64,000 nucleotides of DNA from Amycolatopsis cihanbeyliensis (GTDB taxonomy: Bacteria; Actinomycetota; Actinomycetes; Mycobacteriales; Pseudonocardiaceae). The position numbers were made by a program, and so were the translations under genes. The notes beneath the pieces are model-generated. The model was not told the DNA's origin, ran no database searches, and saw only the letters and a program-made list of their open reading frames with translations. The stretch is from contig NZ_VFML01000001.1 in assembly GCF_006715045.1 (NCBI RefSeq), positions 4,556,501 to 4,620,500 on the forward strand, written 5' to 3'. Below are positions 7,346-26,402 of this stretch, piece by piece (the stretch's first letter is position 1; each line of letters starts with the position of its first letter).

Positions 7346-7353
7346 GCGCGTGC

Positions 7354-8349: not shown

Positions 8350-8370
8350 GCCCACCCGCACCGACACCCG

Positions 8371-8494
8371 CGTGTTGGCCGCGCACGCGCGCGTGTTGGC
8401 TGTTCGCGTGCGCGAGTTTGCCGCTCACGCGCGCGAGTTTGCCGCTCATGCGTACGAGTTTGCCGCTCATGCGTACGAGTTGGCCGTTCGCCCG
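8371..8494. repeat. 21-bp tandem repeat, about six units
   Basis: Six consecutive imperfect units start at 8371, 8392, 8413, 8434, 8455 and 8476. The consensus is close to CGAGTTTGCCGCTCATGCGT; units 4 and 5 are identical. The first two units carry GTGTTGGC and the last GAGTTGGCC in the core. There are no unique spacers, so this is not a CRISPR array. An isolated matching copy occurs at 23149-23170 on the other side of the NRPS island. Confidence 0.9.
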
Positions 8495-8533
8495 CGAGTT
8501 GGGTCAAGTTGTGACTGGGGCACTTACCAAGGA

Positions 8534-8593
8534 GATCGAAAGTAGCTGGACGGAGCCGGGCCGTCGACCTGCACAGGTCGGCTACTTTCGATC
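8534..8593. repeat. Long hairpin with nested palindrome
   Basis: GATCGAAAGTAGC at 8534-8546 is matched exactly in inverse orientation by GCTACTTTCGATC at 8581-8593. Inside the loop, CGACCTG (8565-8571) pairs with CAGGTCG (8574-8580). No T-run follows on either side. It sits in a gene-free stretch (8350-8705) between the WYL gene and a transposase relic, so it may be a mobile-element end, an operator or a structured transcript. Confidence 0.75.
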
Positions 8594-8705
8594 GGGTTGG
8601 TCGTTGGTCGTCTTGGGGGCGCACTCGACCGAACGGGTCGGATGCGCCAAGCGCACCTCACCATGAAGCGCCCCGGGTCGGGCGCGACCTTCGATCGTCA
8701 CGTTT

Positions 8706-9615: not shown

Positions 9616-9706
9616 CGGCGATCACGTTCCTTCGAGTCCCGGCCTCCACGCACCGCCCATCATCACAGTGCGGCTGCCGTACTGTGAAGATCATGATCCG
9701 CAGGCC

Positions 9707-9736
9707 TTGACAGTTCCTCACGCCAGCACGAATACT
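9707..9736 (+). promoter_or_regulatory. Possible promoter for the StrR-like relic
   Basis: TTGACA at 9707-9712 and AATACT at 9731-9736 are separated by 18 bases, a plausible vegetative promoter pair. The predicted start near 9743 lies about 33 bases before the ATG at 9776. Bases 9616-9706 show nothing else recognisable. Confidence 0.35.
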
Positions 9737-9775
9737 ACAAGCAGTTTGACGTGTACCAAGCGGCCTGGGGGGCAG

Positions 9776-10410
9776 ATGGTGCTAAATGGGCAGAGCCCAA
9801 GCAACGCTGACAACGCGCAATTCTCCACGATCGACACGGAAAGTGAGCGAGCTGCCGCCGACTCCCCGAGAGCGGCCGGGGTGGATCTCGCCTATACACA
9901 AGTGCTCGCCGAAACGGATATCGCGCTTCCACCGATTCTCGTGCACCGTCCCACGGCGCGGGTGACCGGCGGCACACATCGGCTGCCGGCAACCAGTATA
10001 AAAGAAGTCACTGCGATCAAAGTGCAGTTCTTCGAGAGGGACGAGCAAGCCGCCTTTATCCTCGCACTGAGGTCGAGCAACGCGCACTGGTTGCCGCTGT
10101 CCCTGGCTGACCGTGAGAACGTCGCCCGCCGGATTCTCGATGCCCGACCCCCGGTGGTCCGGCCGCGTCCGCCCATCCGAACTGACACAAGGCCGTCAGC
10201 GCGCCCGCGAGCTGACCAGGAACAACCCGTCCACCTCGATTCGAGAAACTGCGCCGACACGCACCTCGACAAGACCACGCGCTCGACAGGTCGGTGTCAG
10301 CGACCTCGCCACACAGACCGCCGCTGATCAAGCAGCGGTACATCGACTCCGGTCGGACCCCACCGTACGTACACGGAAACTGAACGGGTCTCGTCCGGTA
10401 GATCTCTGGG
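9776..10410 (+). pseudogene. StrR-family pathway regulator, degenerate
   Basis: The segment from ATG 9776 encodes a decayed ParB-like N-terminal domain of the StrR/NovG type of antibiotic-cluster activator. Recognisable parts are DSPRAAGVDLAYTQVLAE, LPPILVHRPTARV, VQFFERDEQAAFILAL and HWLPLSLADRENVARRIL. The family's DGMHRLRAA reads GGTHRLPAT and a few residues are missing beside it. After about 10140 the frame changes: the rest of the family pattern (PRWSGRVRP, then TAADQAAVHRLRSDPTVR) is found in another frame, with the helix-turn-helix part eroded. I infer a former cluster-situated regulator that has lost function. Family assignment is from memory of the motif pattern and should be checked by profile search. 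Confidence 0.65.
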
Positions 10411-10411
10411 G

Positions 10412-10463
10412 GCCTGTTCCGAAACTGGACCTTGTCGACCGTTTCGCCAGTTCAGGAACAGGC
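10412..10463. terminator. 17-bp inverted repeat before the NRPS cluster
   Basis: GCCTGTTCC-GA-AACTGG at 10412-10428 pairs with CCAGTT-CA-GGAACAGGC at 10447-10463 around an 18-base loop; only the two central bases fail to match. There is no T-run. It lies between the StrR-like relic and the first cluster gene, so it could insulate the cluster as a terminator, be an operator, or be the footprint of a mobile element. Confidence 0.5.
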
Positions 10464-10569
10464 ATGATCCGCCAAGACGCATGCGGAAGTCCGGCGGGCA
10501 GTTCACAGAACTAGTTCAGAATCGCAAGCGCTGAAATTTGTGTCCAATGACTCGACAAAACGGGGAAAC

Positions 10570-10833
10570 ATGACTGCGGAAGATGCACGAGCGGAATTGC
10601 GCCAGCAAATTTTCTCTCTACTGGCCGAGGTTGCCGGCGGTGTTTTAGACAGTCAAACCATCGAATCGGATACGGAGTTTCCCGAGACGGGGATGAGTTC
10701 GATCGAATATCTGGCGCTTATCGAGAAGATCGAAACAAAGCTCGATGTCTTCATTGACCTCGAAGAGAACCAAGACCTGACCACCGTCGACAAGTTCTGC
10801 GATCTTCTCGTGGATCAAGTGCCATCAGCCTAA
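10570..10833 (+). CDS. Free-standing acyl/peptidyl carrier protein
   Basis: An 87-residue carrier protein. The phosphopantetheine attachment site is GMSSIEYLALIEKIE, with Ser44 as the modified residue; the usual Asp before it is replaced by Ser43. The four-helix pattern is complete (helix 1 LRQQIFSLLAEVAGGVL, helix 2 after the Ser, and a C-terminal TVDKFCDLL). Start chosen at ATG 10570 after GGGGA; an upstream in-frame GTG at 10540 has no ribosome site. First gene of the NRPS cluster, with base composition clearly poorer in GC than the flanking chromosome. It probably tethers a starter or two-carbon unit, or the amino acid activated by the separate adenylation protein, which itself lacks a carrier domain. 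Confidence 0.9.
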   Translation: MTAEDARAELRQQIFSLLAEVAGGVLDSQTIESDTEFPETGMSSIEYLALIEKIETKLDVFIDLEENQDLTTVDKFCDLLVDQVPSA

Positions 10834-10901
10834 AACGGCAACTTCCGCCTGCCGATTGCGATCGACGGTAACAAACGCGGCTGACCCCCCATCCGTACCA
10901 G

Positions 10902-10935
10902 CTCGGCCACGCCCTCTGCTCGGCCACGCCCTCTG
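10902..10935 (+). repeat. Perfect 17-bp tandem duplication
   Basis: CTCGGCCACGCCCTCTG occurs twice back to back (10902-10918 and 10919-10935) in the 129-base spacer between the carrier protein and monooxygenase genes. It looks like a recent slippage or duplication event and may space the promoter or leader of the monooxygenase gene. Confidence 0.85.
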
Positions 10936-10962
10936 ACAAAAGATTATGAGGTCTTCGATATC

Positions 10963-12105
10963 ATGGACTCAACGGCATTTGGTTGCTTCTTGCCCCCATT
11001 CCACGATCCTTCGGTCAGCCCTCAGGCGGCGCTGAAGCACGATATCGAACTGTGTGGACTGGCTGATGACCTTGGTTTCGACGAGATCTGGCTTGGTGAG
11101 CACCATTCCAGTGGTTGGAGCACACTCAGCTCGCCTGACATGTTGATCGCAGCGTTAGCCCGTGAAACTCGCCGTATTCGATTTGCTACTGGCGTGATAC
11201 CGCTTCCCTATCACCATCCTCTTCATGTCGCGGAACGGATGGTGCTGCTTGATCATCTCACGGCAGGTCGAGCGATTTTGGGCTGTGGAACGGGAACATA
11301 CGTTCACGACATGGAAATGATCGGGGTGGATCCAGGAACTGTCCGCGATCACTTCCGAGCGGCATTGGAAACCGTGCAAGCGCTTATCAACGGCGAGACG
11401 GTCGACACTACGACACCGTGGTTCACCGCGAAGAAAGCCGTACTGCAGCTCCGGCCGCTGAGGGGTTCCATCGAGACTGTCGTCGCGTCATCGCTGAGCG
11501 ATGCCGGGATCGAGCTACTGACCGACACCGCGACTACTCCGACCGTTCACGTGGTGCCACCCTGGGGTGCCATCCGGCCTGGAATGGACCCGGATCCGGT
11601 CGGCTCGCTCGTCGAGCGCGTCGAATCCTACCGGAACAAGTCCGCGGGTTCGACGCGGATCCGGTGCAACGTTTTCGTCCACGTCTCCGACTCCACGGAG
11701 GCGGGCATCGACGAGCTCATAAATGGATGGTCCGCACTGCGGCGCGATTTGTATCGTAATATTCTGGGCACGCCGATTCCGGACTCCCCGGCCGCTCATC
11801 GCAAGACGTTGGAGAGTCTTGTCAAGTCGGGTGCGTTCATTATCGGGGACACGGCGACGTGCACCCGCATGATTCGCGACCTCCTTGATCGGCTAGGCGA
11901 ACCGGTGTCGTTGAATTTCTTCGTTCCCCAGTGGATATCGTACAAAGCGACTTTCGATCAACTGACGGCGATCGCCGACGAGGTCGTGCCCGGGCTCTTC
12001 GGTGGGTTCGACGGTACCGCGGAGTCCATGAAGCTCACTTCGGAAGAGGCCGGACGTCAGATGAAGCTTCGAACCGAGACCATTGGTAATGGAGGCAGCA
12101 AATGA
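10963..12105 (+). CDS. Luciferase-like (LLM) flavin-dependent monooxygenase
   Basis: A 380-residue TIM-barrel flavoprotein of the bacterial luciferase-like family, which uses reduced FMN and oxygen for hydroxylation, N-oxygenation or Baeyer-Villiger type chemistry. Family marks are FGCFLPPFHDP at strand 1, ADDLGFDEIWLGEHHSSGWS, ATGVIPLPYHHPLHVAERM and LDHLTAGRAILGCGTG. The C-terminal part (GAFIIGDTATCTRMIRDLLD, NFFVPQW) is the usual late barrel region. Ribosome site weak (GAGG 12 bases upstream of the ATG). Its stop overlaps the P450 start in ATGA, so the two oxidases are translationally coupled and probably act on the same peptide or precursor. A partner flavin reductase is not encoded nearby. 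Confidence 0.9.
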   Translation: MDSTAFGCFLPPFHDPSVSPQAALKHDIELCGLADDLGFDEIWLGEHHSSGWSTLSSPDMLIAALARETRRIRFATGVIPLPYHHPLHVAERMVLLDHLTAGRAILGCGTGTYVHDMEMIGVDPGTVRDHFRAALETVQALINGETVDTTTPWFTAKKAVLQLRPLRGSIETVVASSLSDAGIELLTDTATTPTVHVVPPWGAIRPGMDPDPVGSLVERVESYRNKSAGSTRIRCNVFVHVSDSTEAGIDELINGWSALRRDLYRNILGTPIPDSPAAHRKTLESLVKSGAFIIGDTATCTRMIRDLLDRLGEPVSLNFFVPQWISYKATFDQLTAIADEVVPGLFGGFDGTAESMKLTSEEAGRQMKLRTETIGNGGSK

Positions 12106-13331
12106 GCTCTGCAGAAGTGAGTCTTGACTTCAGCTCTGACGAGTTTCTCGCCGACCCTTGGCATATCTACAAGGAACTCCGGCAAGCGGATCCGGTGCAC
12201 TGGTCGGAGGCGTTCAGGGCCTTCCTGGTCACGAGGTACGACGACGTTGTCGCCCTGCTGGCGGACCGGCAGGTCGTCAGCGGGTTTCCGATGCGCAGCA
12301 GTCGCCGGTTGTTCGGCCCGACGTTGCTGGACGCCGACGGACCGCGTCATCGTGAGTTGCGAAAGCTATTCACGCCACTGTTCGCGGGCGCCTCGGTGAA
12401 GCGGCTGCGCACCGAGATACTCATTCCCGCGGTGGACCAGGTTCTCGACTCGATCGAAGCCGAGATGGGGTCCATGGACGATGTCGAGATCGAGTTCATG
12501 GAACGGGTCGCGGTCGGAGTGCCCTATGCGATGGTCACCCGGCTGTTCGGTTTACCGCCGGAAGACGCGGCCTGGCTGCGTCCCCGGGTCCTTCCGCTGG
12601 CCGGTGCTATCGAGTTTCCGGCAACCTCGCTGGACACGGCGGTCGCGAGCAAGGCAGAACTGGTCGACTATCTGACAGACAAGCTCGCCAGTCGCCAAGA
12701 GGGCGACCGGATGCCGTTCCTCGACCTCGTCTTCCCCCCAGGTGAACCGGTTGACGAGTCCCTGCTGGGAACGGCCACGCTGTTTCTGCTGGCCGGAACG
12801 GAAACGAGTGTCGCCACCATCGGCAAGATCATGTATGCCATATTGGCGCATGACGTCGAACTGTCGGCGTTGGCGGACTCCGAGTACCGGGACCAGGTGG
12901 TGCGCGAGACGCTGCGCTGGGAACCGCCGAGTCACACTATCCTCAGATATGCGTCCACCGACCTGAACATTCACGGCGTGGACGTGCCGCGCCGGTCCGC
13001 GCTTCTGCTGTCGGTCGGTAGCGCCAGTCGCGACGAGAACACGTTCTCCGACCCGGACACGTGGCGTCCGGGTCGACCAGACCAGCGGATGCTGGCCTTT
13101 TCGTCCGGCCCGCACACCTGCCTGGGCATCCAGCTGGCCTTGGCGGAGTTCGACACGCTGTTCGAGCGGTTGTCGCTGCGGTTCGGCGGCGTCCAGCGCA
13201 GCGGGTCGCTCGACGGCATCCGGCGTGGCTTCTGGCGGCTGCGGGAGCGAGGCCACATCTTCCGCCGGCCCGATCATCTTTATGTGCGAATGGAGCGCCG
13301 ACGCGCGGGGAGAAGCGAGGCCGATGCCTGA
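12102..13331 (+). CDS. Cytochrome P450
   Basis: A 409-residue soluble bacterial P450. The I-helix oxygen-binding motif is LLAGTETSVATIG, the K-helix ExxR is ETLRWEPP, and the heme-ligand loop is FSSGPHTCLGIQLA with Cys340 as the thiolate. Length and motif order are those of a secondary-metabolism hydroxylase. It overlaps the monooxygenase gene by 4 bases and the adenylation gene by 8, firmly placing it in the NRPS operon, where it likely hydroxylates a carrier-bound amino acid or the released product. It needs a ferredoxin and reductase from elsewhere. Confidence 0.95.
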   Translation: MSSAEVSLDFSSDEFLADPWHIYKELRQADPVHWSEAFRAFLVTRYDDVVALLADRQVVSGFPMRSSRRLFGPTLLDADGPRHRELRKLFTPLFAGASVKRLRTEILIPAVDQVLDSIEAEMGSMDDVEIEFMERVAVGVPYAMVTRLFGLPPEDAAWLRPRVLPLAGAIEFPATSLDTAVASKAELVDYLTDKLASRQEGDRMPFLDLVFPPGEPVDESLLGTATLFLLAGTETSVATIGKIMYAILAHDVELSALADSEYRDQVVRETLRWEPPSHTILRYASTDLNIHGVDVPRRSALLLSVGSASRDENTFSDPDTWRPGRPDQRMLAFSSGPHTCLGIQLALAEFDTLFERLSLRFGGVQRSGSLDGIRRGFWRLRERGHIFRRPDHLYVRMERRRAGRSEADA

Positions 13332-15333
13332 CGCGGAAACCGCTCCATACGATCTGACGGCCGAACTTGCGGCCGGGTCCTCCGGGCGCGACCGGGCAGC
13401 GCTGGTGGTGGCCGCGTTCGCGGTGACTCTGTGCCGGTGGACGGCGATGAGCGAAGCCGCGATCGCGGTCGCCGGGAGGGTGATCCGGCTCCAGGTCGAC
13501 GACCGGGCGCTCATCGATGACTTCCTGCGGGCGGTGCACACGACCGGAGTCGCTGAAGACGGACCGGTGGACCTCGTGATCGCTTCCGAGCACGACGATC
13601 TTCGGTCTGGGGAGGTCCGCTTCAGCACCGAAATACCTTACGCCGCGCACGGGTTCGTCGCCGACGTCGCCGCCGCGGTGAGCGAGATGACGTCCCTCGA
13701 CGGTTCTCTCCAGGACGTGCGCTGCATCGCGCCGGAGCGTCGCCGGATCCTCGATGCGCTGGTCGGCGCGGACGTTCCCGTGGTGGACATCGAAACCCTG
13801 TTCCTGGAACAGGTGCGGCGCCACCCGCAGGAGGTCGCGGTCCGTGACGCGAGCGTTGAGCTGACCTACGAGCAACTCGCGCATGTCGCCGATCACTACG
13901 CCGACGTTCTGCGGCGTGCCGGGGTCCGGCCCCGGGACACGGTGCTCGTCGCGACCCGGAGATCGGTCGGGGAGGTGGTGGCGCTACTCGCGATCACCCG
14001 CCTCGGCGCCGCATACGCGGGATTCGACGACGACGCACCGGAAGCCCGGCTGGCGACGATCGTCGGCAAGCTGGCGCCCGCCGTCGCGGTGACCGATACC
14101 ACGACGACCGACCATCCCGCCCTGCGCGAGCTCACCCGGGTCGACTCGTGGCACCCCGGACAGCACACCGACACAGACCCCGAACCGCTGAGCCGACCAC
14201 CTGGCTCTCCGGATCCACACCGCACGGCGTACATCGCGTTCACCTCCGGTTCCACCGGCGAACCGAAGGGCGTTGTCGTCCCGCATCAGGCAGTCACGCG
14301 ACTCGCGCTCACGGTCGAACTCCAGGTGCGCCCCGGTGACCGCGTTCTACGCATGGCGCCACTGGCTTTCGACGCGTCGACGTACGAAATCTGGGTGACC
14401 CTGCTCAACGGCGCGACGCTCGAGGTCCTCCCGGTGAAACGTCCGTCGGTCGGAAGGCTCGAAAAGTTCTTCACCGAGCGGAAGGTCTCGGTCGCCTGGC
14501 TGACGGCCAGCCTGTTCCGGCTGCTTGCCAACTCTCGGCCGCGGGCGCTCGCCGGACTCCGCTGGCTCGTGAGCGGGGGAGAAGTCGTATCGCACGAGTC
14601 CGCGGCCCGCATGCTCGAGCTACACCCCGGGCTGGTGATCACGAACGGATACGGGCCCACCGAGAACACGACTTTCACGACCACACACACCGTGCGCGAC
14701 AGCGCGGAGATCAACGGGCCTCTTCCCATCGGCAGGCCGATCGCCGGCACCAAGGTTTTCGTCCTCGACCGGAACGCCCGTCTCGTTCCGCCCGGTGCGG
14801 TCGGCGAACTGTACGCGGCCGGATCAGGTGTAGCCGATGGTTATCTCAACGACGAGACCGAGACAAGCAGCCGGTTCGGTCACTTCTCTCCGGATGTCAA
14901 TGAACGCCTGTACCGCACCGGCGATCTGGTCCGACTCGACCCGCACGGCAACCTGGTATTCCTGGGCCGCGAGGACAAGCAGATCAAACTCGACGGGCAC
15001 CGCATCGAAACCGAGGAGATCAGCACCACCCTCGCTCGTCATCCCGATGTTCGGGACGCCGTGATCTTCGTTGCTCGGCAACCGAACCGAGGTCCGCAGC
15101 TCGTAGCAGCCGTCGTCATGCGCCCCGGCACCGATGCAGACCCACGATCACTGCGGACGTTCCTGTCACACCTGCTGCCCAGCTACGCCTTACCCGCCCT
15201 GTGGGTCGTGGTCGACGAGATCCCGCTCACCCGCAACGGAAAGGTCGACGAACAGGTCCTGATCGAATCCGCGACGCCGCCGGTACCCGCCAGCAGAGGA
15301 GACCGCGATGTCCTCGCCGCTCGACGGCCATGA
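13324..15333 (+). CDS. Stand-alone NRPS adenylation protein with a condensation half-domain
   Basis: A 669-residue protein. Residues about 1-150 resemble only the C-terminal lobe of a condensation domain (AALVVAAFAVTLCRWT; LVIASEHDD; LRSGEVRFSTEIPY), with no HHxxxDG. An adenylation domain follows (about 155-660) with intact cores: A3 FTSGSTGEPKG, A4 FDASTYEIW, A5 NGYGPTEN, A7 YRTGDLV, A8 DGHRIETEEI and the catalytic Lys640 in LTRNGKVD. The protein ends there with no carrier domain, so the aminoacyl group must go to a carrier in trans. My hand-read pocket residues (D, A, Y, W, V, G, G, T, F, K) resemble valine-type codes; this is a weak prediction. Start at ATG 13324 after GAGG. Overlaps the MbtH gene by 26 bases. 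Confidence 0.92.
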   Translation: MPDAETAPYDLTAELAAGSSGRDRAALVVAAFAVTLCRWTAMSEAAIAVAGRVIRLQVDDRALIDDFLRAVHTTGVAEDGPVDLVIASEHDDLRSGEVRFSTEIPYAAHGFVADVAAAVSEMTSLDGSLQDVRCIAPERRRILDALVGADVPVVDIETLFLEQVRRHPQEVAVRDASVELTYEQLAHVADHYADVLRRAGVRPRDTVLVATRRSVGEVVALLAITRLGAAYAGFDDDAPEARLATIVGKLAPAVAVTDTTTTDHPALRELTRVDSWHPGQHTDTDPEPLSRPPGSPDPHRTAYIAFTSGSTGEPKGVVVPHQAVTRLALTVELQVRPGDRVLRMAPLAFDASTYEIWVTLLNGATLEVLPVKRPSVGRLEKFFTERKVSVAWLTASLFRLLANSRPRALAGLRWLVSGGEVVSHESAARMLELHPGLVITNGYGPTENTTFTTTHTVRDSAEINGPLPIGRPIAGTKVFVLDRNARLVPPGAVGELYAAGSGVADGYLNDETETSSRFGHFSPDVNERLYRTGDLVRLDPHGNLVFLGREDKQIKLDGHRIETEEISTTLARHPDVRDAVIFVARQPNRGPQLVAAVVMRPGTDADPRSLRTFLSHLLPSYALPALWVVVDEIPLTRNGKVDEQVLIESATPPVPASRGDRDVLAARRP

Positions 15334-15499
15334 CGCCGATTTCGTGGTGGTCGTGAACGAAGAACAGCAATACAGCCGGTGGTCGGCGCCAGTCGCCGTG
15401 CCCAGTGGATGGACCATCGCCCACGGTTCGGCTGCCAACGACGGCTCTCCCTGCTACGCGCGGGACAGCCGGACCGACATGCGCCCGGTGAGCGCCTGA
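15308..15499 (+). CDS. MbtH-like protein
   Basis: A 63-residue MbtH family chaperone that binds and activates adenylation domains. The fingerprint is present: FVVVVNEEQQYSRW at the start, VPSGWTI in the middle and TDMRPVSA at the end. The region between (HGSAANDGSPCYARDSR) differs from the usual GxxxECLxYIxExW, so this is a divergent member. It begins inside the end of the adenylation gene and ends 15 bases before the large NRPS gene, consistent with serving both adenylation domains. Confidence 0.9.
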   Translation: MSSPLDGHDADFVVVVNEEQQYSRWSAPVAVPSGWTIAHGSAANDGSPCYARDSRTDMRPVSA

Positions 15500-15514
15500 A
15501 TGAAGGAGGGCTCG

Positions 15515-18500
15515 ATGAGGTTGTCGCTCGGGCAGGAGCGTTTGTGGCTGTTGCAGCAGCTCGACCGGACCAGCGCCGCGTACAACATTCCGATCGTTTT
15601 ACGGTTCCGCGACGGCGTCGATTTCGAGGCACTGGACCGAGCGCTCGACAGGCTCGTCGAACGTCACCCAGTGCTCCGCTGGACGTTCGCCGCGGACGAG
15701 TCGGGGACGCCGGTCGCCACACCGATGGCGGACTTTCGCATTCCGGTGGAGCGACGTACCGCCGGAGATGGCGAGAACGAGTGGCAGGCGCACACGGCCG
15801 ACTTGGCCATCGAACCGTTCGACCTCGCGGCCGCGCCGCCCGTGCGCGCAATGGTTGTCGAGTGCGCTGACGGATCGGCCGTGCTGTGCCTGGTGATGCA
15901 TCACATCATCACCGACGGTCGTTCCATCCAGATCGTGACCGAGGATCTGCCGACTTTCTACCGGTCGGCGACGCCCACGCCGATCGACATGACATACGAG
16001 GACTTCGTCGCATGGCAGCGCTCCGGCACCGAAAACGAGTCCGCGGCGGAACACCTCGAGTACTGGCGGCGGGAGCTCGACGGATTCGAACCACTGCGGC
16101 TGCCGGCGGACAGACCGCGACCGGCCAACCCCGGGTTCGCCGGCGACCACGTCGATTTCGAACTACCAACCGAGCTCACCAAGGCCTTTTGTGCATTCGC
16201 ATTGCGGAATCGGTGCGCGGTCTCCAGCGCCGTGGCCGCGGTGCTACAGGCGCTCATGTCGCTCCACTCCGGGCAAGAGGACATCACGATCGGAACGGTG
16301 CTGGCCGGCCGCGACGACCGCCGGTTCGCCGACGTACTCGGCTTTTTCGTGAACACCGTGGTTTTGCGCACTCACATTACCCCGTCGACGTCGTTCCGCG
16401 AGCTGCTCAAGGTGGCACGCACCAAGATGGTCGAGGCATACGCCCATCAACAGGCGCCGTTCGACCAGGTGGTCGCGGAGGTCCGGCCCGAACGGGAGTC
16501 GGGTCGCAACGCGATCTTCGATGTCGTGGTCGTGCACAACGGGGAGATTCCCCCGCCCGGCGAAGGCGAGATCACCAGCGTGCCATGGGCAGGCGTGGCG
16601 ACCCGGTTCGACCTGGAACTGGTCACCCACCTGCAGGACGGCAAGCTGCACGGCTCACTGGTGTTCCGCTCCAGCCTCTTTCACCGATCCACCGCCACGC
16701 GGCTCGTCAGCCGGCTTGTCTGGCTCGTCGAACACGCGCTGGAGAACCCGGACGAGCCGCTCTTCGGACCACTACGCGGGCAGCTCGACTACTGGCGGAA
16801 GCAGCTCGCTGATGCTCCCGCGGCACTGGACCTGCCAGCCGATCGCGTGCGCCCGCCGGTGGCGTCCTACCGCAGCGACTCGGTCCGCTTCGAAGTGGAC
16901 CCCGGTGTTGCCGGGGAGTTGCGTGAGCTGAGCAGTCGGCACGGCGTCACTCCGTTCATGGCCCTGCTGGCGACCTTCTCCCTCGTGCTGTCCCGCTACG
17001 CACGCACCACCGAGGTGACGGTCGGAGTACCCACGACCGGAGGAACCAGCTCGGAACCAGAACCACTGACCGGGTTCGACGCCAACACACTGGTGCTGCT
17101 CACCGACCTTTCCGGTGATCCCACCTTCCCGGAACTGCTGGGGCGCGTGCGGGAGACCACGCTCGGCGCCCACGCGCACCAGGACGTCCCCTTCGAACGT
17201 CTCGTAGCAGAGCTGGCACCCCAACGAGACTTCAGCCGCAACCCCCTCACGCAGGTCGCCCTCCAGCTGGTGGACGTGCCGTTGTCGAACGTTCCGCCTG
17301 CCGGTACGGAAGCGCAACCATTCGATCTCGAATGTCACGTGGCGGACCGGAACGGCGTGCTGGAGGCCCGGGTCGACTACAACGCCGGCGTGTTCGACCG
17401 GGTCACGATCGAACGATTCATCCAGCACTTCCAGCAGCTACTCGCATCCGTCGGAGCGGACCCGGAGCAACCGCTGTCCGCCCTGCCGATGATGAGCGAC
17501 TCCGAAACCCGGCGGCTGGCGCAGGACTGGAACGACACCACCGCGACGTTGCCGAACCCGGCGACGGTGCCCGCGGCGTTCGCCGAACAGGTCCGCCACC
17601 GACCTCACGCGACAGCCCTGGTATGCGACGAGGACTCCCTGACCTACGCCGAGCTCGACGCCCGGTCCAACCAGCTCGCGCACCGGCTGCGAACCCTGGG
17701 CGCCGAACCCGGGGCCCTCATCGGAGTGTGCCTGCCACGCTCCACCGAACTGATCACCGCATTGCTCGCGATTCTCAAGACCGGCGCCGCGTACCTGCCG
17801 ATCGACCCGGAGTACCCCGAGGAGCGCCAACGGCTCCTCCTCACCGATGGCGACGCCCGACTCGTGGTCACCACCGACCTGGTGGGCGATCCCACCATCG
17901 ATGAGGAACCATCGACCGCGCTCGAGTCCGTAGTGCGGCCGCAGGACCTGGCCTACGTCATCTACACGTCCGGTTCAACCGGACGCCCCAAGGGCGTCGA
18001 AATCGAGCACCAGGCAATCATCCGCCTTGTCACCGGAATGCCGGAGGGCATCCTCGGCCCTCGCGAGGTACTGCTACACGCATCAGCAATCTCCTTCGAC
18101 GCCGCTACTTTCGAGATCTGGGGTGCCCTCCTCGCCGGCGCCACGTGCGCCATTTCCACTGAGCGAGTCCTCACCGCCCGACCGCTCGCCAACGCGATCG
18201 CTCGCCACCGGATCAGCACGCTCTGGCTGACCTCGTCGTTGTTCAACCACATCGTCGACGAGGACACCACGGCGCTGACCGGGCTCCGTCATCTGCTCGT
18301 CGGCGGCGAGGCGCTGTCCGTCGCCCATGTTCGCCGCGCTGTCACCGCTCTGCCCGGCACGCGGGTCTTCAACGGTTACGGCCCTACCGAATGCACCACG
18401 TTCGCCACCTGCCACCCCATCGCCTCTCCTGTTCCCGCCGACACCAGCGGCATCCCCATCGGCCGCCCGATCGGCAACACCCGCGTGTATGTCCTGGACG

Positions 18501-20401
18501 ACCAGGGCCGGCTCGCGCCGACCGGAGTACCGGGAGAACTCCACGTGGCCGGACCCGGTGTCGCAAGAGGCTACCGAGGGCAACCGGAACTCACCGCGGA
18601 GAAGTTCGTCCGCAATCTCTACGACACCACGAGCGGCCGGCTTTACCGGACAGGGGACCTCGTCCGTCACAACGCCAACGGCGACATCGAGTTCCTCGGG
18701 CGCCTCGACGACCAGATCAAGATCCGCGGCTACCGCATCGAACCTCAGGAGATCGAAGCCAGCCTCCAGGCCCATCCGGACATTCCGCAGGCCGCCGTTG
18801 TCGCGCGCGAAGACACGCCCGGCCAGAAGAGACTCGTCGCCTATCTCAAGGTCCCGGGTGATGACGTTCCTGACGACGCCGCCCTGCGTGCCCATCTGCG
18901 AAGCGAGCTGCCGGAGTACATGGTGCCCGAGGCGTTCGTGGCACTTCCCGAACTACCGTTGACCATCAACGGAAAACTGGATTCCAGCGCGCTTCCGGCA
19001 CCCGACAGCGGCACCCGAACGGACACGGCCGCGACGTTCGTCCGACCACGTAACCAGACCGAAGAAGCCTTGGCTGCGATCTGGGCCCACGTTCTCGACG
19101 TCGATACCGTCGGCAGGAACGAAAGCTTCTTCGACGTTGGCGGACACTCTCTGAAAGCCGCACAGCTCGCCGTCCGGATCAGTGAGACGTTCGACATCCA
19201 ACTACCGTTGCGGACGGTGTTCGAACGGCCCACGATCGCGAAGCTGGCCGAAGAGATGAACAGCGAGCGGCGGACAAGCACAGGCCACGTGCGCTCGTTC
19301 GACCCCCAGCCCATACTGCGCAGCGTTGTCCCGGACCCGCTGCCACCACGCAAGCTCGACGAGATCTCGGACGTCCTGCTCACCGGAGCCACGGGCTTCG
19401 TCGGGGCGTACTTGGTCCGCGAGTTGCTGGCACGGACCAGCGCGCGCGTCCACTGCCTCGTCCGGGCGGCGGACGAGGACGCGGCGTGGCATCGGCTGCG
19501 CGCGAATCTCGACCATTACGGCCTGTGGCACGACATCGACCACGAGCGGATCGCGGTCGTTCCCGGCGATCTCGCCGCGTCCGGACTCGGGCTCACCACC
19601 GCGACCTTCGGTCGCCTCGCGGACGAGATCGACCTGATCTGCCACAACGGCGCTCGGGTCGATGCGCTCTCGAGCTACGAGCAGCTCGAGGAGACCAACG
19701 TGGGTGGTACCCGTGAACTCATCCGGCTGGCGGCCACCACCTGGCTCAAGCAACTACAGTTCGTGTCGACCATTTCCGCTGCCGATGAAGGTGACGCGCG
19801 CAGCGGGTACGCGGAGACCAAGTCGCATGCCGAGCGGCTGGTCATCGCCGCACACGAGCGCGGAATGCCGGCAGCGATCTACCGGCTGCCCCGGATCGTC
19901 GGAGACTCGCAGACCGGACAGGGGAACACGCGGGACATCATGTTGCGGGTGCTGCGGATCATTCTCGAACTCGGCGCCGCACCCGACACCGAGCTGGAGG
20001 AACCCTGGCTCGAGGTGGACGAGACAGCCGGTCTGCTCGCCCGGATCGGTGCGGAGCAGCCGCCGGACGGCAGCCGCTTCGTGCTGACGAGTCGGCGACC
20101 TGTACGTCTCACGCACGTGCTGGAGCTACTGCGGAGCACCGGCACGGCGATCGACACCCGGCCGGTAGTCGACTGGCTCGCGATGCTCGAGGCCCACTCT
20201 CCTGAGGAACACGCCATCCTGAAACTGCTCTTCGAGTCCCCTCCTGGCGCCAGCGGCAACGGTGGGCCAAGTCGTGAGTTCGTTCCGATCGTCGTTCGGA
20301 GCCCCGACGACAACGCGATACTTCGCTACGTCGACAGAATGCTTGTCCGGTCTCCTCAAGCCGCGAAGTCCGGAGAATACGAAAGGTCATTGCAAACATG
20401 A
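15515..20401 (+). CDS. NRPS: C - half C - A - PCP - thioester reductase
   Basis: A 1628-residue synthetase. A complete condensation domain spans about 1-410 with HHIITDG (His129-Gly135). Next comes a second, N-truncated condensation lobe (about 420-665; LDYWRKQLADAP, NTLVLLTDL, HQDVPFERLVAEL, RDFSRNPLTQ) lacking the catalytic histidines. The adenylation domain (670-1165) has TSGSTGRPKG, FDAATFEIW, NGYGPTEC and Lys1154; hand-read pocket D-A-F-W-L-G-G-T-F-K is close to the valine code. The carrier domain has GGHSLKAAQ with Ser1212. A reductase domain (1285-1628) has TGATGFVGAYLVRELL and Tyr1432-x3-Lys1436, so release should be reductive, giving an aldehyde or alcohol. No thioesterase or epimerase. 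Start at ATG 15515 because GGAGGG sits just upstream. ATGA overlap with the E1 alpha gene. Confidence 0.95.
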   Translation: MRLSLGQERLWLLQQLDRTSAAYNIPIVLRFRDGVDFEALDRALDRLVERHPVLRWTFAADESGTPVATPMADFRIPVERRTAGDGENEWQAHTADLAIEPFDLAAAPPVRAMVVECADGSAVLCLVMHHIITDGRSIQIVTEDLPTFYRSATPTPIDMTYEDFVAWQRSGTENESAAEHLEYWRRELDGFEPLRLPADRPRPANPGFAGDHVDFELPTELTKAFCAFALRNRCAVSSAVAAVLQALMSLHSGQEDITIGTVLAGRDDRRFADVLGFFVNTVVLRTHITPSTSFRELLKVARTKMVEAYAHQQAPFDQVVAEVRPERESGRNAIFDVVVVHNGEIPPPGEGEITSVPWAGVATRFDLELVTHLQDGKLHGSLVFRSSLFHRSTATRLVSRLVWLVEHALENPDEPLFGPLRGQLDYWRKQLADAPAALDLPADRVRPPVASYRSDSVRFEVDPGVAGELRELSSRHGVTPFMALLATFSLVLSRYARTTEVTVGVPTTGGTSSEPEPLTGFDANTLVLLTDLSGDPTFPELLGRVRETTLGAHAHQDVPFERLVAELAPQRDFSRNPLTQVALQLVDVPLSNVPPAGTEAQPFDLECHVADRNGVLEARVDYNAGVFDRVTIERFIQHFQQLLASVGADPEQPLSALPMMSDSETRRLAQDWNDTTATLPNPATVPAAFAEQVRHRPHATALVCDEDSLTYAELDARSNQLAHRLRTLGAEPGALIGVCLPRSTELITALLAILKTGAAYLPIDPEYPEERQRLLLTDGDARLVVTTDLVGDPTIDEEPSTALESVVRPQDLAYVIYTSGSTGRPKGVEIEHQAIIRLVTGMPEGILGPREVLLHASAISFDAATFEIWGALLAGATCAISTERVLTARPLANAIARHRISTLWLTSSLFNHIVDEDTTALTGLRHLLVGGEALSVAHVRRAVTALPGTRVFNGYGPTECTTFATCHPIASPVPADTSGIPIGRPIGNTRVYVLDDQGRLAPTGVPGELHVAGPGVARGYRGQPELTAEKFVRNLYDTTSGRLYRTGDLVRHNANGDIEFLGRLDDQIKIRGYRIEPQEIEASLQAHPDIPQAAVVAREDTPGQKRLVAYLKVPGDDVPDDAALRAHLRSELPEYMVPEAFVALPELPLTINGKLDSSALPAPDSGTRTDTAATFVRPRNQTEEALAAIWAHVLDVDTVGRNESFFDVGGHSLKAAQLAVRISETFDIQLPLRTVFERPTIAKLAEEMNSERRTSTGHVRSFDPQPILRSVVPDPLPPRKLDEISDVLLTGATGFVGAYLVRELLARTSARVHCLVRAADEDAAWHRLRANLDHYGLWHDIDHERIAVVPGDLAASGLGLTTATFGRLADEIDLICHNGARVDALSSYEQLEETNVGGTRELIRLAATTWLKQLQFVSTISAADEGDARSGYAETKSHAERLVIAAHERGMPAAIYRLPRIVGDSQTGQGNTRDIMLRVLRIILELGAAPDTELEEPWLEVDETAGLLARIGAEQPPDGSRFVLTSRRPVRLTHVLELLRSTGTAIDTRPVVDWLAMLEAHSPEEHAILKLLFESPPGASGNGGPSREFVPIVVRSPDDNAILRYVDRMLVRSPQAAKSGEYERSLQT

Positions 20402-21372
20402 CTCGTGAACATCAGATGACTCTGTATCGGTCTATGAAACTGATCCGGGAGTTCGAAGAACGATGCCTGGAGATGGCAATTGCTGGTGAGATCATCGGGG
20501 GTATTCACCCGTACATCGGGCAGGAGGCTGTTGCCGTAGGCGTATGTTCGAACCTGACGGAGCGAGATTTCATCACGAGCACTCACCGGGGACACGGGCA
20601 TGTGCTGGCAAAGGGTGCGGACCCCCGCCGTCTGCTTGCCGAGCTCCTTGGCACCCTCGAAGGTTTCAACAAGGGTCGTGGCGGATCGATGCATGCTGCG
20701 GACATCGAGCTGGGTATCCTGGGTGCCAACGGTATCGTCGGAGCGGGGGGAGCAATAGGGACCGGCGCCGCCTGGGTCGCCAAGGACCGCGGAAGCTCGG
20801 ATGTCGTCATCAGCTTCTTCGGCGACGGAGCAATGAGCCAAGGCGTACTGTTGGAAGCATTCAACCTGGCCGCAATCTGGTCCTTGCCGGTGCTGTTTGT
20901 CTGCGAGAACAACATGTACGCGACGAGTCTCAAGGTTGAGTCCGGACTCGCGGGCAACGCGGCGCGGCGCGCCGAAGGCTTCGGGCTGGTTGCACGTACG
21001 GTCGACGGCATGGACGTCGAGTCCGTGGCGTCCACGGCGGGGGAACTGATCGAACGGTGTCGCGAGAACAAAGGCCCGGCGTTCTTGGAATGCTCGACCT
21101 ACCGGTTCTTTGAGCATCACTCCATACTCGAACAATTGGGGGTCGGGTTTCGTGATCCTGACGAAATAGCCAGTTGGCGCAAGCGGGATCCGATCCTCTC
21201 ATTGGGTAAGCAGTTGAGCGATGCCGCTGTCGCCGAGATCGATGAAGATGTAAAGGGAAAAATCGATGAAGCGGTTGATTTTGCAAGGAACGCCGCGCCG
21301 CCCGACCCGAAGGACGCACTTATGTATCTGTACTCAGGAGAGGTCGCGGTCCGGCCAGGGGTGATCCTGTGA
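20398..21372 (+). CDS. Thiamine-diphosphate dehydrogenase E1 component, alpha subunit
   Basis: A 324-residue E1 alpha protein of the pyruvate/acetoin/branched-chain dehydrogenase class. The thiamine-diphosphate motif is intact: GDG at about residue 142 through the ENN at about 170 (FFGDGAMSQG ... VCENNMYATS). The segment GRGGSMHAADIELGILGANG is closest in style to acetoin/pyruvate E1 alpha. It decarboxylates a 2-oxoacid, or cleaves a ketose, to a thiamine-bound acyl anion, normally passed to a lipoyl E2; no E2 or E3 is encoded here. It overlaps the NRPS stop by 4 bases and the beta gene by 4. Codon use is much less GC-rich than the chromosome (about 45% in the first 60 bases). Role in the pathway is inferred: supply of a C2/acyl unit, or an acyloin reaction. 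Confidence 0.92.
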   Translation: MTREHQMTLYRSMKLIREFEERCLEMAIAGEIIGGIHPYIGQEAVAVGVCSNLTERDFITSTHRGHGHVLAKGADPRRLLAELLGTLEGFNKGRGGSMHAADIELGILGANGIVGAGGAIGTGAAWVAKDRGSSDVVISFFGDGAMSQGVLLEAFNLAAIWSLPVLFVCENNMYATSLKVESGLAGNAARRAEGFGLVARTVDGMDVESVASTAGELIERCRENKGPAFLECSTYRFFEHHSILEQLGVGFRDPDEIASWRKRDPILSLGKQLSDAAVAEIDEDVKGKIDEAVDFARNAAPPDPKDALMYLYSGEVAVRPGVIL

Positions 21373-22352
21373 GTGATCTGCAATCCGTGTCGCTCCCCGG
21401 GTATGTGCGTGCGCTGAACCGCGCACTGCATGCCGAGATGGCGGCGGACGACAGCGTTTTCGTGATCGGTGAAGACGTGCGGGTCGGAGCGAGTGGAGTC
21501 ACCGCGGGTCTGGTACCCCAGTTTGGCACGGAGCGAGTGCTGGACACGCCGTTGTCCGAGCAATCTTTTACCAGTTTCGGGACCGGTGCCGCGATGGTCG
21601 GCAGAAGGCCCGTGATCGAGTTTCAGATATCCTCGCTGCTGTACCTGGTGTTTGAGCAGATAGTGAACCAGGCTCACAAGTTCTCGTTGATGACCGGCGG
21701 GCAAGTTCATGTACCTGTCACGTACATGGTTTCGGGCTCGGGTTCGAGATGTGGATGGGCAGGCCAACATTCGGACAGCCCGTACAGTCTGCTCGCACAT
21801 GCGGGGATCAAGACGCTGGTTCCAAGCAGGCCGGAGGACGCTTATGGACTGTTGCGGTCGGCGGTTCGGGATCCCGACCCGGTAGCGGTGTTTGCCCCTT
21901 CCGCGTTGATGGAGGCAGCGGATGTCGCCGACTCGGGAGAAGAGGAGGTCGTGCCACTGGGAGAAGCGAACGTCCTGCGGGAGGGCGATGACCTGACGGT
22001 AGTGGCGGTGGGGCAGCATGTCGGTACAGCACTTGAGGTTGCCGAGAGTCTTGCCGATCAGGTCGAAGTCGAGGTTATTGATCCGAGAACGGTTTACCCG
22101 TTCGATTGGCAGCGCCTCGGTAAATCGGTCAACAAGACCGGGCGCCTTGTCGTGATCGATGACTCGAACCGTATGTGCGGGTTGGGGGCGGAGATAATTG
22201 CGACAGCGGCCGAAGAGTTCGATCTGCTGGCGCCGCCGAAGCGTGTCAGCAGGCCCGATGGTGCGGTCATCCCGTACGCTCTTGCGCTCGATCAGGAGTT
22301 GGTATCCGGTACTGAACGACTGACGAAGGCCATCAGAGCGGCGTTGATGTAA
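21369..22352 (+). CDS. Thiamine-diphosphate dehydrogenase E1 component, beta subunit
   Basis: A 327-residue transketolase-like E1 beta protein, partner of the preceding gene. Motifs include VFVIGEDVRVGASGVTAGLV near the N-terminus, the glutamate-bearing VLDTPLSEQSFTSFGTGAAM, QIVNQAHKF, and GSGSRCGWAGQHSDSPYSLL. The C-terminal transketolase domain (LREGDDLTVVAVGQHVGTAL, VEVIDPRTVYPFDW) is complete. GTG start in a GTGA overlap with the alpha gene, so the two subunits are made together as an alpha2-beta2 enzyme. Length and order match AcoA-AcoB, but the operon setting is biosynthetic rather than catabolic. Confidence 0.92.
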   Translation: MSDLQSVSLPGYVRALNRALHAEMAADDSVFVIGEDVRVGASGVTAGLVPQFGTERVLDTPLSEQSFTSFGTGAAMVGRRPVIEFQISSLLYLVFEQIVNQAHKFSLMTGGQVHVPVTYMVSGSGSRCGWAGQHSDSPYSLLAHAGIKTLVPSRPEDAYGLLRSAVRDPDPVAVFAPSALMEAADVADSGEEEVVPLGEANVLREGDDLTVVAVGQHVGTALEVAESLADQVEVEVIDPRTVYPFDWQRLGKSVNKTGRLVVIDDSNRMCGLGAEIIATAAEEFDLLAPPKRVSRPDGAVIPYALALDQELVSGTERLTKAIRAALM

Positions 22353-22404
22353 GAGAGCGGACGCCCCGCACCAGGAAATTCCTCCGCAGCGCCAAGGGAG
22401 AATA

Positions 22405-22992
22405 ATGGAGACAAACGACATCGTGGATGGCTACCGGCGGACGCAGGACGCCTTCGACGCCGTCCTTGCCGCCGTCCCGTCGCAACGGTGGAACGCGGCG
22501 TCAGCGTGCGAACTCTGGACTGTGCGTGACGTGGTAGGCCACGTCATCTGGGGGCTGGAGGTCCTGCGCCATCACGTGACGGGCCAGGAGTACACGGAAC
22601 GAACCGGCCCACCGGGCTCCGAGAATCCCGGTGAGCTCGCCGGCGACGACCCATTGGCCGGGTGGCGCGCGACCCGCGAAGCGACTGCCGCCGCCCTCAC
22701 CGATGAGGTACTCGATCTGCCCGCCGCCCCGTGGTACGAGGCCCTGCGCCCCGGCGTGAAGGTCACGGACCACCTGGAAATGTTGACCTTCGACACCTTG
22801 GTCCATACCTGGGATATCGGGTCCGCGCTCGGCATGGACGTGCGTCTGGAGCCCGATCTCGTCGCGCGGTCGTTCTCCCTTGCCCGCTTGATCATCAGCC
22901 GCACGCCGAGCACCTTCGGTCCCAAACTGGCCCCGCCACCGGACGCCGACAAGCAGACCCGCTTTCTGGCCTTCCTCGGCCGATCGGTCTGA
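22405..22992 (+). CDS. DinB/MDMPI-like (TIGR03086-type) metal-binding protein
   Basis: A 195-residue protein of the DinB-like four-helix superfamily that includes mycothiol-dependent maleylpyruvate isomerase and thiol transferases. Conserved elements are the N-terminal DGYRRTQDAFDAVL helix, CELWTVRDVVGHVIWGLEVL carrying one metal-ligand histidine, and TFDTLVHTWDIGSALGMDV carrying another. AAGGGAGA precedes the ATG. It begins 52 bases after the E1 beta gene on the same strand. Its activity is unknown; in this setting a mycothiol transferase that detoxifies a reactive (for example aldehyde) product is a reasonable inference. Confidence 0.85.
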   Translation: METNDIVDGYRRTQDAFDAVLAAVPSQRWNAASACELWTVRDVVGHVIWGLEVLRHHVTGQEYTERTGPPGSENPGELAGDDPLAGWRATREATAAALTDEVLDLPAAPWYEALRPGVKVTDHLEMLTFDTLVHTWDIGSALGMDVRLEPDLVARSFSLARLIISRTPSTFGPKLAPPPDADKQTRFLAFLGRSV

Positions 22993-23148
22993 AGCTTCGG
23001 TCCGGTTCGATGGCGTCAGCGGCGCAGCATCGCGCGGTCGCCGGGCCTTGACCGTGTCCGCGCCCGTAGAACCGCAGGTCGAGGCGGGTTCCCACCAAGG
23101 TTCATGCCATGCGAAACAACCTGAGTGGAGAATCCGCCTGGCCACTCG

Positions 23149-23170
23149 TGCACGCGAGTTGGCCGTTCCG
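23149..23170 (+). repeat. Isolated copy of the 21-bp repeat
   Basis: The sequence here shares the exact 13-mer GAGTTGGCCGTTC (23156-23168) with the last unit of the 8.4-kb tandem array (8477-8489), again preceded by a CGCG-type context. The 217-base spacer 22993-23209 holds nothing else I can name. The two sites bracket the accessory island. Confidence 0.6.
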
Positions 23171-23209
23171 GTGCAGCGAGGCCGTCGCTCGGCGTACCGA
23201 GTTCCGTGC

Positions 23210-23401
23210 TCAGCGGCGCACCGTGCCGAGGAAGGCTCGCCAGGCGGCGGGTTCCAGGGTGAGGTGGCCGGCGGCGGGGTCCTTCGAGTCGCGCACGGCC
23301 GCCGCCCGCGCGGTGGTCGCCACCTCGACACAGTCACCGTTGTTGGCGTTGCTGTGGCTGCTCTTGCGCCAGGTCAGCTCGGCGTGCTCGGGGGTGGTCA
23401 T
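23210..23401 (-). CDS. DUF397 domain protein
   Basis: A 63-residue DUF397 protein, recognised by LTWRKSSHSNANNGDCVEVA and the later VRDSKDP. In actinomycetes these small proteins are encoded beside XRE-DUF5753 regulators and several pairs affect development or antibiotic production. Start at ATG 23401; it overlaps the upstream regulator gene by 68 bases in another frame, so the pair is cotranscribed and probably coupled. Confidence 0.9.
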   Translation of the reverse strand: MTTPEHAELTWRKSSHSNANNGDCVEVATTARAAAVRDSKDPAAGHLTLEPAAWRAFLGTVRR

Positions 23402-24275
23402 GACGTCCGGCCTCCATCTGGTCGTACTCGCTTGCCAGCCAGGCAAGCCACTCCCGCGATTGTCCCGCATCCAGCGCATCCCGATCGAGTCGCGCCAGTA
23501 TCTCCCGGTACATCGCGACGTCCTCGGGCTCCTCCAGGAACAGCCCCGCGGCCCAGGAGTCCACGTAGGTGACCGGCGGGTGCTCGGCGTACCCCATCAC
23601 CTTGAACGCGCCACCGACGATGCCGTACGGCCCCGCCGCATCCGGCACCACCCGGATGGAGCAGCGTGGCCAGGAGTCCACCAGCAGCAGGCTGACCAGT
23701 TGCTCGTGCATCACCTCCGGCCCGCCGACCACCGCCCGCAGCGCTCGCTCGTGCAGGAAGAACTTGCACCACGGCGACCGTGCCCGCTTCAGCACGTGCT
23801 GCCTGGCCAGCCGGGCGTCGACTCGCAGCTCGATGTCCTCGGGTGGGCGGTTCGATCCCCAGCGGAACAGCTCGCGGATGTACTGCTCGGTCTGCAGCAG
23901 CCCCGGCACGATCAGCGGGTCGTAGCTGGTGATCGCGTTCGCCGTGCCCTCCTGCAGGATCAGCGAGCGCAGCTCCTCGGGCAGCTCCCGGCTGTGCGGC
24001 CGGAGCCAGTAGCGGCTGTCCGCCTCCCGGGCGAGGGTGACCAGCCGGTTCAACTCCGACCGCACCACCAGGCCGCAGCTGACCAGGTAGACCGCAACGT
24101 CCACTTCGGAGGCGCCGCGTTGCCCGCTCTCCATCCGGGACACCTTGCTCGGTGACCAGCCGAGGGTGCGCGCCAGGTCGTGCCCGCTCAACCCGGATCG
24201 CTGGCGGATCCGCCGTAGCTCGGCACCGAGTTCCCTTGCCCGCGCGGTGGAGTCCCGCTTCGCCTTCGCCGTCAT
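23334..24275 (-). CDS. XRE family regulator with DUF5753
   Basis: A 313-residue regulator. The N-terminal helix-turn-helix reads LGAELRRIRQRSGLSGHDLA followed by RTLGWSPSKVSRMESGQRG. The rest is DUF5753, with characteristic ITSYDPLIVPGLLQTEQYI, VDARLARQHVL and YGIVGGAFKVM. This is the standard partner of the overlapping DUF397 gene downstream. The C-terminal tail (DHPRARRADLAQEQPQQRQQR) lies within the overlap. The signal and targets are unknown; it borders the NRPS island but faces away from it. Confidence 0.93.
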   Translation of the reverse strand: MTAKAKRDSTARARELGAELRRIRQRSGLSGHDLARTLGWSPSKVSRMESGQRGASEVDVAVYLVSCGLVVRSELNRLVTLAREADSRYWLRPHSRELPEELRSLILQEGTANAITSYDPLIVPGLLQTEQYIRELFRWGSNRPPEDIELRVDARLARQHVLKRARSPWCKFFLHERALRAVVGGPEVMHEQLVSLLLVDSWPRCSIRVVPDAAGPYGIVGGAFKVMGYAEHPPVTYVDSWAAGLFLEEPEDVAMYREILARLDRDALDAGQSREWLAWLASEYDQMEAGRHDHPRARRADLAQEQPQQRQQR

Positions 24276-24371
24276 CCGACCAACCTAGAACGCCAGGTCA
24301 GCAGGGGTCCGGCACGGCGCGGCCGGTTCACCGGAAGAGATGCGCCCTTGCCAGGGGCGCAACTCGCCCGA

Positions 24372-26333
<1,962 letters not shown>

Positions 26334-26402
26334 TTACCCGCGCTGGCCCGAGAGGGTTACTCGCCCGTAGCGTTGCCCGTTGTCACATGCGAGACTCCCT
26401 CC

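Follow-up and report, generated by a model that had tools for sequence, protein, structure and literature searches.

A horizontally transferred synthetase gene cluster in Amycolatopsis cihanbeyliensis that combines a terminal thioester reductase with an E1 pair related to those of orthosomycin loci

A 64,000-nt stretch of Amycolatopsis cihanbeyliensis DNA (assembly GCF_006715045.1, contig NZ_VFML01000001.1, positions 4,556,501–4,620,500; referred to below as the window) was analysed. It was found to contain nine genes, all on the + strand at positions 10570–22992, which encode a nonribosomal peptide synthetase (NRPS) with accessory proteins and a pair of thiamine diphosphate (ThDP)-type E1 subunits. 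The genes are as follows:

10570–10833, + strand: free carrier protein (PP-binding, 24.9 bits, above the Pfam cut-off), with the phosphopantetheine Ser in ETGMSSI
10963–12105, + strand: luciferase-like monooxygenase (LLM), probably FMN-dependent (Bac_luciferase, 131.5 bits)
12102–13331, + strand: cytochrome P450 (p450, 86.9 bits), with haem Cys and AGTETS motifs
13324–15333, + strand: free adenylation (A) protein (AMP-binding, 251 bits)
15308–15499, + strand: MbtH-like protein (MbtH, 53.7 bits)
15500–20401, + strand: NRPS synthetase with condensation (C), half C, A, peptidyl carrier protein (PCP), and reductase (R) domains, assigned from Pfam and NCBIfam domains and motifs
20398–21372, + strand: E1 alpha-type ThDP subunit with an HHS loop (E1_dh, 219.8 bits)
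21369–22352, + strand: E1 beta-type ThDP subunit (Transket_pyr and Transketolase_C)
22405–22992, + strand: DinB/MDMPI-fold protein, probably of the mycothiol-enzyme type (MDMPI_N, 54.9 bits; TIGR03086 and TIGR03083 above cut-off)

The carrier start at 10570 was kept from an earlier note on this DNA (the longest open reading frame, ORF, begins at 10540), and the start at 13324 was chosen for the free adenylation protein (longest ORF from 13225). With these starts, 5 of the 8 junctions overlap (by 4, 8, 26, 4, and 4 bases), 1 abuts, and 2 have gaps of 129 and 52 bases. This arrangement is operon-like and supports the description, given in that note, of a compact NRPS cluster.

Eight of the nine genes were found in the same order in 12 other genomes, with protein identities of 70–94%. 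Comparison with four relatives gave dN/dS values of 0.02–0.37 for all eight conserved genes, indicating purifying selection; taken together, the shared order and these values argue that the gene set is not a chance assembly. E1 alpha relatives of at least 81% identity were present in 12 other genomes among 390 of the host's family (own genome included), and in Nocardia panacis too. Thirteen loci were read, comprising 12 full copies (L113–L119, L121–L123, L005, and L008), recognised by long, collinear tblastn matches to the eight proteins rather than by proofing of single frames, and a truncated one (L120). At the scan thresholds, E1 alpha relatives were detected in 3 of 394 genomes of the class (own genome included), and the LLM scans gave relatives in 2/401, 5/150, 3/300, and 10/168, the last including the own genome. 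Plasmid searches with the LLM and E1 alpha returned only relatives of less than 60% identity. This small set of genes has moved by horizontal transfer among relatives of Amycolatopsis.

The synthetase contains all the domains and motifs of an NRPS with a terminal thioester reductase (C, A, PCP, and R, with HHxxxDG, GGHSL, and YxxxK), arranged as follows:

about 15500–16774, + strand: complete C domain, HHIITDG
16775–17569, + strand: half C, the C-terminal lobe of a C domain
17579–18994, + strand: A domain, code read as DAFWLGGTFK
19067–19252, + strand: PCP, GGHSL
19373–20398, + strand: terminal thioester reductase (R), YxxxK

The thioester-reductase domain scored above the NCBIfam cut-off, and its YxxxK motif was kept in all 13 clusters (the window and the 12 full copies). 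As a prediction, the terminal reductase supports the earlier proposal that a short peptide would leave the synthetase as an aldehyde or an alcohol. The half C corresponds to the C-terminal lobe of such a domain (residues about 426–690) and lies behind the complete C domain; it showed 34% identity to the second C domain of a Plantactinospora cluster described below and 30–31% to lobes of first C domains, a difference too weak to decide its origin. NCBIfam models for AusA (aureusimine) and MxcG (myxochelin) matched the synthetase, but below their cut-offs. Unlike reductase NRPSs of that type, the window has a single elongation module, an extra half C, an A protein and a carrier acting in trans, and E1 and DinB genes downstream.

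The codes of the two A domains were read by eye against what we take to be the GrsA positions, giving DAYWVGGTFK for the free A protein besides the synthetase code listed above; a script check left the fourth position unread. By script, the synthetase code was the same in all 13 clusters; the free A code followed DAY-x-[VL]GGTF in 12 of 13, L116 being ambiguous. Both codes are presumably valine-like. The Asp of an A-domain code is used for alpha-amino groups, and it is kept in both. The free A protein has about 150 additional N-terminal residues, found in Plantactinospora as well, for which comparison with C lobes revealed no detectable similarity.

Relatives of the LLM led to clusters that share the front end of this gene set and differ in the back end. 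A Plantactinospora cluster has the same order, carrier-LLM-P450-A-MbtH-NRPS, with identities of 58% (carrier), 76% (LLM), 81% (P450), 70% (A), 59% (MbtH), and 67% (first C domain). Behind this C domain its synthetase continues, by reading, as A-PCP-C-A-PCP-TE, the thioesterase (TE) being confirmed by Pfam. Different from the window, a gene resembling the major facilitator superfamily is present, and the 34-kb locus contained no match to E1, DinB, or the reductase. Three further loci (L211, L212, and L213) encode an LLM of 43–45% identity, a related first C domain (44–47%), and a TE; within 19.5 kb, no match to E1, DinB, or the reductase was obtained, and the carrier and P450 were undetected. 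Among the clusters read, E1 and DinB were present in 13 of 13 R-type clusters (the window and 12 others) and in none of the 4 that are TE-type. When the 120 best relatives of the first C domain were examined, they included 21 proteins with PF07993 (73–100% identity) and 22 proteins of at least 44% identity with PF00975.

The motifs of the shared front end are conserved. ETGMSSI of the carrier, as well as the haem Cys and AGTETS motifs of the P450, were found in the window, in the 12 full relatives, and in Plantactinospora, and a Dactylosporangium carrier (45%) retains the phosphopantetheine Ser. NCBIfam LLM families matched the window LLM only below their cut-offs. LLM relatives of 54–65% identity were also observed outside this NRPS setting, in Nocardia (L137, L138, and L216) and Dactylosporangium (L148), with a carrier-like ORF nearby in L137 and L138 (by eye) and in L148. 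An MbtH gene between the A and NRPS genes was not found in any of the 12 other full copies, although both A domains are kept in them. Because Plantactinospora carries an MbtH at the equivalent position, to which that of the window is 59% identical, loss in the other copies is the simpler reading.

For the DinB protein, metal-ligand-type residues H46, D130, and H134 were invariant in 10 sequences. A structure model (pLDDT 86.5) gave Foldseek matches with a probability of 1.00 and a best E value of 0.014, none being 0.001 or lower; the matching folds were mycothiol S-transferase and maleylpyruvate isomerase and, lower ranked, the colibactin self-resistance protein ClbS. By modelled fold and conserved residues, the protein fits the DinB/MDMPI mycothiol-enzyme type.

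The E1 alpha loop in the window reads FFEHHSILEQLG, of the HHS type. HH[ST] was present in all 120 best E1 alpha relatives and occupies the position of GHxxxD, AHxEGM, or AHTTSDD in other E1 loci for which the loop was printed; it was seen in 73 fetched E1 loci and not in 80, several of both kinds coming from the same genomes. E1 beta has 327 residues and only the two usual domains. No Pfam match to a lipoyl or E2 domain was obtained in the nine proteins, and a PF00198 (E2) profile search gave no match in the window. Three E2 matches were found in the genome, at 2.16, 2.54, and 3.86 Mb as compared with 4.56–4.62 Mb for the window (E3 was not searched), and near 3.86 Mb another E1 alpha-like gene lies together with E2. 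A lipoyl motif, which is an insensitive marker, was detected no more than 4 kb from E1 in none of 84 HH-type loci and in 22 of 80 others; of these, 30 HH-type and 46 other loci had 4 kb of sequence on either side of E1. Searching the own genome with PF00198 is the more powerful test. A stray lipoyl motif is present at window position 40081.

The closest E1 relatives with readable context were those at L185 and L186, taken as Micromonospora, with 62% identity for alpha and 68–69% for beta and with the HH[ST] loop. Two oxygenases at L185 match EvdO1 and EvdO2 (707 and 568 bits, respectively), and the locus also has nucleotidyltransferase, sugar-epimerase-type, EryCIII-like, and halogenase genes. 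By these matches and this gene content, L185 is identified as an everninomicin locus, and its E1 pair would be EvdU5/EvdS3. In a tree of E1 alpha and beta with 58 rows, the window family (11 rows) was sister to three orthosomycin-like rows (L185, L186, and Dactylosporangium G1307) with support of 92/89, below the tool's 95 mark, and both lay inside a 26-row clade with support of 100/100. In a rapid tree of E1 alpha alone (85 rows, L185 not among them), the window family grouped with G1307 and with 15 relatives whose context was not read (27 rows, SH-aLRT 99). The rows of these trees do not include AviB, Pau, Plm, NapB/NapD, or QncN/QncL sequences. The identities and the sister group place the window pair in the orthosomycin-type clade.

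Several other E1 loci were noted. In Dactylosporangium G1307 (L158/L173), HH-type E1 alpha and beta are separated by about 31 kb, and the region also carries sugar-epimerase, EryCIII-like glycosyltransferase, and PhyH genes. Another E1 alpha/beta family occurs in biosynthetic clusters of the Saccharothrix group (L124, L125, and L127) and Kribbella (L010 and L011), together with a protein of the 4-hydroxyphenylpyruvate dioxygenase/glyoxalase type, a PhyH-type oxygenase, and adenylating enzymes; a C-A-PCP NRPS is present in L124 and ketosynthases in L010. At L126 and L131 (related to L128 and L129), E1 pairs lie near genes of the ketoacyl synthase III (KASIII) type and carriers, as a fused ORF in L126 and separately in L131. 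L126 also has a condensation-domain protein, and no lipoyl motif was seen near E1 at these loci.

The function of an ordinary pyruvate dehydrogenase (PDH), branched-chain 2-oxoacid dehydrogenase, or acetoin dehydrogenase does not fit these features. No E2 lies near the E1 genes and the loop is not GHxxxD- or AHTTSDD-like; with the tree placing the pair elsewhere, the first two functions were dropped. The lack of an E2 match in the window and the 4-base overlap of E1 alpha with the synthetase gene support the earlier note in joining the E1 pair to the NRPS cluster. As members of the PDH-like superfamily, the two subunits might instead convert a 2-oxoacid into free acyl-CoA or another acyl thioester, for the pathway or for metabolism, which is the role proposed for PglB/PglC in phenylglycine pathways. 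This seems quite unlikely with an E2-less window and another E1 alpha-like gene next to E2 near 3.86 Mb. The loop lacks the forms seen outside the HH clade, the pair is sister to those of orthosomycin loci, and the E1 genes overlap by 4 bases with the NRPS gene and with one another.

The absence of a nearby E2 is a feature that the window shares with transferases of the orthosomycin and paulomycin type, which are likewise two-subunit E1 alpha/beta pairs. According to the available text of PMC10338323, the PDH-like ThDP pair EvdU5/EvdS3 is hypothesised to add an acetyl group to UDP-4-keto-xylose, and a like step with pyruvate is assigned to AviB1/AviB2, Pau11/Pau12, and Plm8/Plm9 in the accessible parts of PMC4425429, PMC4753412, and PMC4802897. 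These pathways act on a ketosugar and include genes for NDP-sugar formation and glycosyltransferases, none of which is among the nine genes; an NRPS with a terminal reductase takes their place here.

The earlier note had compared the pair with NapB/NapD and QncN/QncL, thiamine-dependent systems that load a C2 (glycolyl) unit onto a carrier. Such a system would transfer the unit from a ketose phosphate or 2-oxoacid onto the free carrier, for use by the first C domain as an N-terminal acyl cap. QncN/QncL, SclQ1-4, NapB/NapD, and DinU/DinS do resemble the window in that an E1-type pair and a free carrier occur together in an NRPS cluster, and carriers as well as ketosynthase or KASIII genes are found in some clusters from the sister E1 clade. 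The portion of PMC7570522 that was available describes, for dnacin, an E1-type pair, DinS (754 aa) and DinU (306 aa), with the carrier DinT and a KASIII; it also states that tetrahydroisoquinoline synthetases end in a reductase. In quinocarcin and scleric acid, as given in the accessible part of PMC6335953, the unit passes via lipoyl and acyltransferase domains, fused in QncL and separate as SclQ4, whereas no such domains were found in the window. The free carrier of the window has its counterpart alongside A, LLM, and P450 in the Plantactinospora cluster, which has no E1 match, and the Asp in both A codes leads one to expect that the free A protein charges the carrier with an amino acid. Carrier loading of this type was accordingly dropped as the leading explanation and is considered unlikely. 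With no E2 match in the window, the Plantactinospora cassette lacking E1, and the nearest readable pair being of the everninomicin type, addition of the C2 unit to a carbonyl is more likely than its loading onto the carrier. We reject a QncL-type system with greater confidence than we propose the acyloin described next.

We suggest, tentatively and at somewhat less than an even chance, that this is a self-contained, horizontally moving cluster with two functional halves, in which the E1 pair adds a C2 unit to a released peptide aldehyde to give an acyloin. The first half would consist of the free A protein, the free carrier, the LLM, and the P450, with or without MbtH. The free A protein would attach an amino acid (valine-like, as its code is read) to the carrier; the LLM and P450 would oxidise the carrier-bound residue, and the first C domain would couple the oxidised residue to a second valine-like residue on the PCP. 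The second half would consist of the terminal reductase, E1 alpha/beta, and the DinB protein. The reductase would free the peptide as an aldehyde, the E1 pair would form a hydroxyethyl-ThDP carbanion, most likely from pyruvate, and this carbanion would add to the peptide aldehyde in the way suggested for related E1 pairs acting on a ketosugar. The outcome would be a peptidyl alpha-hydroxy methyl ketone (acyloin), and the DinB protein may act on this electrophilic product, or protect against it, with mycothiol.

The oxidation step also offers another acceptor, namely a ketone made by the LLM and P450 on the carrier-bound residue, to which E1 would form the C–C bond in place of the released aldehyde. 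The flavin monooxygenase domains of solanimycin, myxothiazol, and melithiazol synthetases are presumably of the LLM type. In their NRPS modules these domains alpha-hydroxylate glycyl residues, as reported in the available section of PMC10204066, and with an amino acid such a reaction could give a 2-oxo acyl group. A ketone acceptor is nevertheless improbable, with Plantactinospora having the LLM and P450 without E1, and with E1 and DinB found only with the reductase ending. Solanimycin was also considered as a known product of an LLM, a P450, and a reductase, and does not match as far as the accessible part of PMC10204066 describes it.

Several observations weigh against addition to a released peptide aldehyde. 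The R-type clusters form one lineage, so the association of R with E1 and DinB may reflect one shared gain and counts as a single event. Two Rhodococcus strains have R-type synthetases, and no row named Rhodococcus was present among the best 120 E1 alpha relatives, which were taken from a clustered database and include many rows without a name. The truncated copy L120 (in G147) contains only a reductase remnant, E1 alpha, E1 beta, and DinB, a gene content that reflects decay. Relatives P0024–P0036 (59–64%, contexts unread) may be closer to the window pair than that of everninomicin, whose step is a hypothesis in print. Some clusters with E1 pairs of the sister clade (L010, L126, and L131) contain carriers and ketosynthase or KASIII genes, so carrier acylation may occur in the wider E1 group. 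No NDP-sugar or glycosyltransferase genes were found among the nine genes or the 20 flanking ORFs tested, so the acceptor in the window must differ from those of the known relatives. Finally, the regulator-like gene kept upstream of the cluster in seven relatives is broken in the window, whose copy may for this reason be silent.

Two features describe the genomic site of the cluster:

8369–23209, no strand: extent of the insertion relative to the congener, the window flanks 1–8368 and 23210–26778 aligning to L199
9779–10370, + strand: broken regulator-like remnant, two matching pieces in different frames with the middle part gone

The closest relative found was G085 (LeuA 96%). At its locus L199 the two flanks align adjacent to each other, with about 0.77 kb between them; the window thus has a 14.8-kb insertion with the cluster inside, and the same site is empty of the cluster in the closest congener. 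G085 has its own copy at about 1.806 Mb, 1.3 Mb from the insertion site. GC content was mostly reduced across 8–24 kb of the window. An integrase-core-like ORF at 8777–9565, on the left side of the insertion, has a weak rve_3 match and is perhaps a transposon remnant. Downstream flanking genes were common to the Amycolatopsis copies only.

The broken gene directly upstream was overlooked in the earlier note. Its pieces, 9779–10141 and 10161–10370, are 53% and 46% identical to residues 1–141 and 184–275 of a 335-aa protein; this upstream protein, of 335 to 346 aa, is full-length in seven Amycolatopsis copies (L116–L119 and L121–L123). It has weak helix-turn-helix matches, mostly below cut-off, and we take it to resemble ParB-type antibiotic regulators. 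The TE-type locus L212 carries a 48% relative. The gene was not found in L113, L114, L115, and L120, the sequence of L113–L115 covering about 5 kb upstream; about 0.5 kb was covered in L005 and L008.

The broken regulator, the integrase-like remnant, and the truncated copy in a congener would suit an acquired island that is decaying or silent and at present makes no product in this strain. That explanation is very unlikely, with eight conserved genes open, under purifying selection relative to four relatives, and with their catalytic motifs kept. L113–L115, which have no regulator in about 5 kb upstream, suggest moreover that it may be dispensable.

No characterised cluster with the same gene set was found in the open-access literature, and none of the isoquinoline genes is among the nine, as the earlier note had stated. 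Searches for a published cluster of the same composition, for NRPS clusters with E1-type genes, and for peptide acyloins gave no counterpart in the open-access literature, most subscription papers lying outside its coverage; nor was one found there for a chain ending by reduction and then acylation. A search there for phosphonothrixin likewise gave no result, and this possible precedent is not relied on. Such an ending, in which an aldehyde is made solely as the acceptor for an orthosomycin-type E1, yielding a C-terminal acyloin that DinB handles with mycothiol, is a possibility that we hold with some reserve, as rather less than evenly probable.

Before E1 pairs in NRPS clusters are assigned to carrier loading of the NapB/NapD type, lipoyl and E2 domains should be checked. 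If the proposal is true, reductive NRPS release and an E1-type two-carbon transferase would be joined in a new chain-ending step, with peptidyl alpha-hydroxyketones as the predicted product class. The eight-gene conserved system, with 13 full copies read, would then be available for the study of E1-type C–C transferases that work without E2.

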